From: Nanobdellati archaeon
Lineage (GTDB): Archaea; Nanobdellota; Nanobdellia; UBA10117
Assembly (NCBI GenBank): GCA_016204275.1
Contig: JACQKZ010000003.1
Span: 1 to 50,285 of the forward strand
DNA: 50,285 nt
Direction of reading: 5' to 3'
The notes below the pieces were generated by a model. The model was not told the DNA's origin. It saw only the letters and a program-made list of their open reading frames with translations, and made no database searches. Made by a program: the position numbers and the translations under genes. Positions within the stretch are counted from its first letter, which is position 1; each line of letters starts with the position of its first letter. Shown here one piece after another: positions 12,594 to 38,018 of this stretch.

Positions 12594-13319
12594 CTAGCCA
12601 ATATACTGAGTTGTCTCGCTTTTCTGCTTTTGTATGTCCGTTGCCTGCTTTGCCTGTTCAAGCAGGCCCTTAATCTGATCTTCTATCTCCGCAGCGCGCT
12701 TGAGAAGCGGGGCAGAGTCAATATCTAAGCCAAGATATTTGTCAAGAACCTGAATTATTTTTGCTGCCGCGCGGTTGTCGGGCAGCTTGCCCTGTGCCTC
12801 TGCAAAAATAAAGGATGCCTTGATTTCCTTGTCTAGCTTGTCAAGCAATGCACCTGACACGCCTAGCACGATGCCGTCCTTCAGCGGAAACGCACCCGAG
12901 GACTGCAGCATTTTTCCCCTAGCCTCATCGTTTGAAAAAAAGTATGCATCCGGCTCTTCCTTCTCGGATTCTGGCGAGCCGATGCCTTCTATCGAAATAA
13001 TTTCCTTTGCATTTAATTTTTTATAAAGGAATAATATCGCATCTGCAATCTCCCACTCTATGTTTGAAACGCCGGCTATCGCTTCCAAAATTACTAGGTT
13101 ATATTTTTCGTTGTAGAGAATATCTATTGGCTGGATTACGCGCTTGCCGTGCACGATCGCCATCGGCGCTAGCGCGGGACTCCAGATTCTTCCGATTTGT
13201 TTTAGCTTCAGGTGATCAACTAAATACTCAACTGCAATTGTTGAGACAAATCCGAAGCCTGGAAAGCCTTCTATAATTGTAGCCTTCTGTGGTTTCTCAT
13301 TGAGTTCTATCTTCATCAT
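12594..13319 (-). CDS. PAC2-family protein (archaeal proteasome assembly chaperone-like)
   Basis: IIEGFPGFGFVSTIAVEYLVDHLKLKQIGRIWSPALAPMAIVHGKRVIQPIDILYN. Confidence 0.8.
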   Translation of the reverse strand: MMKIELNEKPQKATIIEGFPGFGFVSTIAVEYLVDHLKLKQIGRIWSPALAPMAIVHGKRVIQPIDILYNEKYNLVILEAIAGVSNIEWEIADAILFLYKKLNAKEIISIEGIGSPESEKEEPDAYFFSNDEARGKMLQSSGAFPLKDGIVLGVSGALLDKLDKEIKASFIFAEAQGKLPDNRAAAKIIQVLDKYLGLDIDSAPLLKRAAEIEDQIKGLLEQAKQATDIQKQKSETTQYIG

Positions 13320-13320
13320 C

Positions 13321-13398
13321 TTATTTTAAACCCCTGCGAACCGAGATTCGCAAAAGCGCAAGCTTTTGTGTTTTCTCATTGAGCTCTATTTTCATCAT
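13321..13398 (-). pseudogene. Duplicated 5' end of the PAC2 gene fused to a hairpin segment
   Basis: Encodes MKIELNEKTQKLALLRISVRRGLK*; first 10 codons match PAC2 MKIELNEKPQK with silent differences. Confidence 0.7.
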
Positions 13399-37214: not shown

Positions 37215-37541
37215 CTAGCCAGACTTTCTCCAAGTGTTACTGCACTTAGTGCATCTGTAAAATTCTACTTCCGGAACTTCATCCGCGCCTGGGCCAGCTG
37301 CGCCAACCTGCGCAGTCCACCAATATGCCTTTTTATTCTTGCATTTGTCGCAGGTTGCATCAACAACGGGCTCGGTCGCCTTGATTTCCTTCGGAACTTT
37401 CTTAAGTTTTGGGTGCTTCTTATCGCCAGACTCTTTGATTATAAGTTTTTCCGCCTTCACGCGCTTGCCGCAACTCGGGCAGCTAAGTGTCTTGCCCTTG
37501 CCTGGCATCAAAAGTGCGCCGCACTTATCGCAAAATTTCAT
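37215..37541 (-). CDS. TFS (TFIIS-like) paralog with altered acidic loop
   Basis: MKFCDKCGALLMPGKGK zinc ribbon; CDKCKNKKAYWWTAQVGAAGPGADEVPEVEFYRCTKCSNTWR. Confidence 0.85.
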   Translation of the reverse strand: MKFCDKCGALLMPGKGKTLSCPSCGKRVKAEKLIIKESGDKKHPKLKKVPKEIKATEPVVDATCDKCKNKKAYWWTAQVGAAGPGADEVPEVEFYRCTKCSNTWRKSG

Positions 37542-37655
37542 ATATTTCCTCACCGTTTTGCGAAGTCGCTGATGCGACTATCACAAAACTTCATACATTC
37601 CTCACCGTTTTGCGAAGTCGCTGATGCGACTATCACAAAATTTCATATTGCTTCC
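37541..37655 (-). repeat. Tandem copies of the TFS 5' end with palindromic spacer
   Basis: Two copies reading ATGAA(A/G)TTTTGTGATAGTCGCATCAGCGACTTCGCAAAACGGTGAGG, encoding MKFCDSRISDFAKR*, directly upstream of the real start MKFCDKCG. Confidence 0.85.
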
Positions 37656-37688: not shown

Positions 37689-38018
37689 TTAATACTTTCT
37701 CCATGTATGATTGCACTTCGTACAGCGGAAAAATTGTGTTGCGGCCTCATCTGCTGCCCTTGTCTGCATCTCCCACCAATAAGCCTTTGGATTTCCGCAT
37801 TTTGGACAAACATTATCTACTACTGGCATTGTGTCGCGTGATTCAGTATTTTGTCGCTCATCTTTTGTCTCTTGTTTTTGTACTCTGGCTTTAAGCTGGC
37901 CTGCCTTGACTTCCCTAAACTCGACCTTGCCAGCCACCGCTTCTTTATGGCCGCAGGCGCAAACAAAATTATTATCGTGATGCTTCATCATCGAGCCGCA
38001 CTTCGGGCAAAATTTCAT
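37689..38018 (-). CDS. tfs: Transcription factor S (TFIIS-like)
   Basis: MKFCPKCGSMM; CPKCGNPKAYWWEMQTRAADEAATQFFRCTKCNHTWRKY. Confidence 0.9.
   Translation of the reverse strand: MKFCPKCGSMMKHHDNNFVCACGHKEAVAGKVEFREVKAGQLKARVQKQETKDERQNTESRDTMPVVDNVCPKCGNPKAYWWEMQTRAADEAATQFFRCTKCNHTWRKY

Follow-up and report, generated by a model that had tools for sequence, protein, structure and literature searches.

The gene for an archaeal transcript cleavage factor paralog (TFS-B) in the window, the 50,285-nucleotide stretch of DNA analyzed here, is preceded by two tandem copies of its own head, each carrying a hairpin, and this combination is no chance pattern. The structure, position and conservation of these units are directly evident, as are the duplication of gene ends as a genome-wide class and the presence of empty orthologous sites. 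In the reading favored here, with a probability of about 0.55, a hairpin inserted long ago and duplicated the TFS head, the unit was later multiplied in tandem, and it now persists as a leader hairpin.

The TFS-B locus and its relatives

The features on which the analysis of the locus is based are the following.

37215..37541, minus strand: TFS-B, archaeal transcript cleavage factor paralog of 108 aa, the head-copied gene; Pfam Zn_ribbon_TFIIS (PF01096) above cut-off
37526..37543, minus strand: real TFS-B head ATGAAATTTTGCGATA, with 8 nt of complementarity to hairpin 2 (3' arm); repeat family D2, alternative fold
37548..37554, minus strand: SD-like word GGTGAGG ahead of the real TFS-B start, including the stop of mini-ORF 2; from sequence, function putative
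37550..37594, minus strand: mini-ORF 2, MKFCDSRISDFAKR* (head copy 2); from sequence, direct repeat D1/D2
37555..37590, minus strand: hairpin 2; from folding and RNA model R1 (59.5 bits)
37602..37646, minus strand: mini-ORF 1, MKFCDSRISDFAKR* (head copy 1); from sequence, direct repeat D1/D2
37607..37642, minus strand: hairpin 1; from folding and RNA model R1 (57.4 bits)
37689..38018, minus strand: TFS-A, the paralog lying immediately upstream of TFS-B; PF01096 at 68.7 bits

The TFIIS zinc ribbon is common to both neighboring paralogs, and the head-copied gene is the second of the two. Against the TFS_arch model (TIGR01384, cut-off 64.75 bits), TFS-A exceeds the cut-off at 80.4 bits and TFS-B stays under it at 58 bits. 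A PCNA gene lies downstream of TFS-B, and upstream of the TFS pair is a gene which we take, from reading its sequence, to be signal-peptidase-like.

Read on the minus strand, positions 37541-37650 contain a pair of 52-bp units that agree over 50 nt at 98%, and the real TFS-B start comes after them. The first head copy begins at 37646, the second 52 nt further on at 37594, and the real start another 53 nt on at 37541. Besides its copy of the head, each unit has an SD-like word and a hairpin in which the 3' arm is complementary not only to its partner arm but also to the head of the gene, and the mini-ORFs stop just before, or overlap, the start that follows. An earlier note on this DNA had described a TFS head duplicated twice before the real start, a perfect 6-bp hairpin, and one mini-ORF encoded by both copies. 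These observations hold, in that both copies read the same peptide and the inner stem AGTCGC/GCGACT is perfect in both units. A small correction is that the second head copy has ATGAAG in place of ATGAAA. The claim of an inverted head copy stands for the real head, of which (TTTTGCGA) the word TCGCAAAA is the exact reverse complement, but not for the head copies, whose own TTTTGTGA pairs with it through one G.U.

As RNA, each unit is predicted to form a 14-bp hairpin with a 1-nt bulge at -16.2 kcal/mol, a fold matched in 0 of 200 shuffles. Within the 705-kb assembly, the 16-nt stem-loop is found at the two unit positions and nowhere else at up to 2 mismatches. The 18-mer head mimic (15/18 matching) ranks within the top three among 783 gene starts, and in a peptide-based scan, where the background reaches at most 20, scores of 26-34 are attained by the heads of TFS and of two other genes and by one low-complexity repeat inside a gene. 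Around the locus Rfam gives zero matches at E<=1, with one chance-level match elsewhere; a sigma-70 and terminator scan returned nothing useful, and no relatives of TFS-B were found in archaeal viral contigs.

The window's genome (G000) was compared with those of congeners (G001 and G002) and of another genus (G005), among others of the family; all are draft MAGs, and those of the relatives carry the labels Woesearchaeota, DPANN or Nanoarchaeota. The TFS-B hairpin is present in 3 of 7 family genomes and in two genera, as two units in G000, two in G001 and one in G005. In G001 the units lie between the same two TFS genes and have diverged from each other (27/35) as well as from those of G000, with stems AGTTGC/GCAACT and AGTTC/GAACT. 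The single unit of G005, AGTTTTGTGATAGTCGC-AAA-GCGACTCCGCAAAAT, stands ahead of TFS-B and is identical to a G000 unit at 32 of 35 positions. It has AGG GAG TTT TGT GAT against ATG GAA TTT TGC GAT in the gene, such that the head copy is without a start codon; the mini-ORF is therefore not generally conserved. The 91% identity of the hairpin between these genera compares with about 66% for the gene alignment (even assuming 66% at each site, P=5e-4), which suggests that the hairpin is probably kept by selection. The congener G002 is without the unit, so the hairpin is dispensable; its TFS-A/TFS-B junction is rearranged and holds a dispersed REP-like insert with TFS-A tail copies on both sides.

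A covariance model made from the five units and searched against 285 genomes of the class at E<=0.01 matched those five units alone, all of them before TFS-B. Two base pairs of the hairpin are altered on both sides (C-G to U-A and G-C to C-G), a covariation for which the pooled shuffle control, with five sequences only, is weak (36/500). The earlier note had named, as an outcome that would refute its reading, a known leader element conserved across distant relatives; such conservation is seen within one family only, and the hairpin corresponds to no known element in Rfam. As with cis-regulatory leader RNAs, a conserved structure occupies a fixed place before one gene, and the TFS-B hairpin is a conserved single-locus feature, probably maintained by selection.

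Duplicated gene ends across the genomes

The scan of 783 gene starts revealed two more duplicated heads in G000, each with the same layout of head copy, hairpin and regenerated start. One of these lies in the window.

12594..13319, minus strand: gene with duplicated head, probably of the PAC2 family (proteasome-assembly-chaperone-like), a name we assume from reading the sequence; from the ORF
13321..13398, minus strand: head-copy uORF MMKIELNEKTQKLALLRISVRRGLK* with hairpin, upstream of the probable PAC2-family gene; second case in the window, also found in G002

The other belongs to the GTPase YchF. The head copies stand 79 nt upstream of the PAC2-family gene and 71 nt upstream of YchF. The PAC2-family uORF of G001 (MIKQISLRSFVNHFGGSQNDENRAQ*) likewise has 25 codons, as has the YchF uORF in three species, where it begins MLIGIVG and ends with a stop over the second codon of the gene. 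Between species, the hairpin of the YchF uORF varies, the first seven codons differ synonymously only, and the remainder differs almost only nonsynonymously. A third YchF head exists in G001, as a copy of 55 nt separated from the working head by 11 synonymous and 0 nonsynonymous codon differences, and there the displaced copy is nearer to all four relatives than the working head is. YchF is also the subject of two separate observations: in G005 (C16:2936-3181) its tail is duplicated (DVVEIMTKK* / hairpins / DVIEIMTKK*), where the window's genus duplicates its heads, and in G003 (C5:48263-49301) it lies in two overlapping pieces with internal stops, through frameshift, insertion or assembly error.

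Close direct-repeat pairs outside single ORFs number 22 in G000 (705 kb), 28 in G002, and 9 in G005, for which 323 kb were scanned. A Markov version yields 1 such pair, and 400 kb from a control genome belonging to the class yield 4, which are weak and AT-rich. By the mechanical gene calls of these scans, the pairs with an assignable gene comprise 29 tails, 7 heads and 3 mid-gene positions. Many of the spacers contain strong hairpins, and some 20 pairs appear as a single copy, or empty site, in a sister genome. Among perfect hairpins of at least 12 pairs, clear bracketing repeats were found by a flank test at only about 5 of 26, so most strong hairpins fall outside the gene-end-duplication class. 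In the literature consulted, mostly outside subscription journals, no description of gene-end-duplicating hairpins in archaea was found. One insert (G000:C13:16430-16619 and G002:C16:10890-11120) is common to two species almost letter for letter, and both of its bracketing tail copies carry species-specific changes (H versus Q), a pattern resembling concerted evolution.

Dispersed REP-like palindromes (e.g., G002:C27:37274-37434) and a second element (GGCGGCTGTTGCATT..AATGCGACCAAAGCGCCAGCCGATT) give 15-34 matches in each of G000, G001, G002 and G005, several of which are bracketed by gene-end copies. The occurrence of the same element at many places, typical of MITE and REP sequences, is thus seen for the dispersed REP-like inserts but not for the TFS hairpin; the latter is unique, its 5' arm is the head copy itself, and no fixed-sequence element ties it to the dispersed inserts. 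A further hairpin family, AGCCTTTCTTT..AAAGAAAGGCTCCYGGGCATCC, is found at G000:C26:42189, G000:C26:42485, G000:C23:24963 and C30:3293. Two of its copies look intronic to tRNA genes, one of them after CTTTTA of a possible tRNA-Lys; ARAGORN calls no tRNA at the copies of this hairpin.

Candidate movers were sought among known enzymes. A REP-associated transposase was set aside, as no RAYT/Y1 transposase (Y1_Tnp) was found in six family genomes, all incomplete MAGs. LAGLIDADG proteins were rejected as absent from the window's genus: LAGLIDADG_3 has no match in the incomplete MAGs G000, G001 and G002, and is present in G003, G004 and G005. The inserts themselves hold no homing endonuclease ORF, and the listed spacers, at most a few hundred nt, are too short for one.

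Origin and role of the inserts

Under the favored reading, a small hairpin DNA, of a sort that is common in this archaeal genus, would have inserted inside the 5' end of TFS-B and become bracketed by two copies of that end, the upstream copy giving rise to the mini-ORF and the downstream copy serving as the working start. The insertion would be older than the split of the two genera or would have spread between them. The unit would then have been amplified in tandem to the two units of G000 and G001, most easily, we infer, when the head copies slipped against one another or exchanged unequally. The hairpin may have been retained as a structured 5' leader, a function suggested by its conservation, and the mini-ORF stops near the next start would suit termination-reinitiation coupling. 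The units are presumed, from their sequence, to be transcribed and translated, and the origin proposed for the inserts is similarly a deduction from sequence.

How such inserts arise may be viewed differently in what is a sub-case of the class view: each two-copy site would be a recombination junction, at which a diverged end of the same gene arrived with the hairpin from a different lineage and took the place of the working end, the native end staying on as its neighbor. This possibility is a tentative one. Support for it can be found at C29, at C16, at C15:2063 in G002, and at YchF in G001, where the attached copy looks foreign and the displaced copy native. The C29 tail VDKEGEVTFYEIRWKKP is present in two copies whose codons differ 13 times synonymously and 0 times nonsynonymously; of the two, the gene-attached copy is farther from G002 than the displaced copy (9 versus 3 unique changes); at C16 the corresponding counts are 7 and 2, and at both sites the extra divergence is limited to the final 60-90 nt of the gene. 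At C15:2063 in G002 the displaced copy is 29/29 identical to the sister gene end and the attached copy differs at 7/29 (7 versus 0). Other sites, however, such as C25 and C20 in G002, present ordinary duplication with a drifting displaced copy, the pooled unique changes come to only 41 for attached versus 24 for displaced copies, and the TFS head copies are too short to tell a foreign from a native end. The combination of a recoded attached copy and a native-looking displaced copy is therefore clear at a few sites and not general. Pooled codon differences amount to 85 synonymous versus 41 nonsynonymous, with about 95 nonsynonymous expected, an excess that is partly due to ascertainment, peptide identity having been among the search criteria and some ORFs being spurious; single sites such as C29 (13/0) go beyond that effect.

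The earlier note had offered either replication template switching or a palindromic element regenerating the gene start, and the latter fits better. In the former, the head would have been copied, a strand switch would have produced the inverted copy, and slippage would have repeated the 52-bp unit. The exact inverted gene head in the 3' arm, with arms made from local sequence, and the near-identity of the tandem units accord with such an event, yet it is unlikely. The same hairpin, with TGTGATAGTCGC and not the gene's TGCGATAAG, occupies the matching position in another genus, which argues against a recent local switch, and the layout recurs with different hairpins at unrelated genes. At YchF, independent insertions whose hairpins do not derive from the head are already seen, which counts against template switching. 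A one-off switch fits worse because two more G000 genes share the layout, and because direct repeats mark dozens of gene ends in two genomes, many of them enclosing hairpins and matched by an empty site in the other genome; the sharing of the hairpin with another genus, and the existence of the class, support placing insertion, and not local template switching, first.

Less probable again is a dedicated RNA switch at TFS-B, which would rest on pairing of the 3' arm CGCAAAA either with its own 5' arm, which would leave the start free, or with the real head, which would loop out the SD-like word and AUG, a ribosome on the mini-ORF deciding which fold forms. All three genomes could form either fold (-16.2/-9.7, -12.7/-9.9 and -14.0/-12.9 kcal/mol), and the hairpin is conserved with compensatory changes. 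In 2 of 3 genomes (z -0.9 and -0.04), however, the sequestering fold does no better than shuffles. Comparably strong anti-head pairing is not unusual at gene starts, the genome-wide duplex energy being unexceptional, and the G005 unit is without a mini-ORF start. The head codons are no more conserved than the remainder (5/5 versus 59%), and this comparison, not being significant, was dropped as proof of head/anti-head pairing.

Assembly artefact, which the earlier note had raised and which the draft state of the source MAG (705 kb, 30 contigs, 68% complete) might invite, is largely refuted and highly improbable, with units or their relatives in three separate assemblies and with the C13 insert and its bracketing copies nearly letter-identical in G000 and G002.

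If true, the insertion of hairpins at gene ends would show how very small, gene-dense genomes accept insertions without gene loss, and how new leader RNAs and uORFs can be born from hairpin insertions. With its dozens of occurrences, for many of which the orthologous site is empty, the class is readily testable. The near-pure synonymous difference between adjacent copies, one of which is expected to be dead, presents a puzzle: either a diverged end was imported, or both copies are used.

Comparison with known systems

The nearest known pattern is the fungal mitochondrial gene hybrid, in which the end of a gene is supplanted by a foreign one carried in with a mobile endonuclease ORF, as described for Allomyces atp6 and for Glomus atp6, atp9, cox2 and nad3 (PMC3630166). 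In both cases the gene end occurs twice around an insert, the working end has diverged, the displaced end matches relatives, and the differences are largely synonymous. Unlike the fungal hybrids, the archaeal inserts are hairpins of 40-130 nt without an ORF, they affect many genes at both heads and tails, and at some sites the recoded attached copy is absent. A possible, though doubtful, extension of the likeness is that hairpin inserts of these DPANN archaea spread into gene ends carrying a recoded end copy, which would keep the gene intact and push the native end aside. It is equally speculative that they form an ORF-less, genome-wide counterpart of the fungal hybrids, of which the TFS-B leader would be an old, amplified and selected example.

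Prokaryotic MITEs, REP sequences and Rickettsia palindromic elements are short, dispersed, palindromic and non-coding, the last being tolerated inside genes (PMC10969869). The archaeal inserts resemble them in being small, palindromic and without coding capacity. They differ in that the copies on either side of them correspond to gene ends and are long, with a length that varies (about 24-54 nt), in that no REP-associated transposase was found here, and in that the TFS hairpin is confined to a single locus. Target duplication of the MITE type, with empty sites, is seen at the roughly 20 class sites noted above; at TFS-B, G002 is without the unit but its junction is rearranged.

The double-hairpin or repetitive hairpin-forming elements of mitochondria offer a further resemblance, being small paired hairpins dispersed over a compact genome; to our knowledge, gene-end duplication is not a mark of these elements. 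Finally, in archaeal translational coupling through leader peptides or uORFs, a short ORF ends at or overlaps the next start. The putative uORF of the TFS-B type differs in that it begins with the downstream gene's own first codons.
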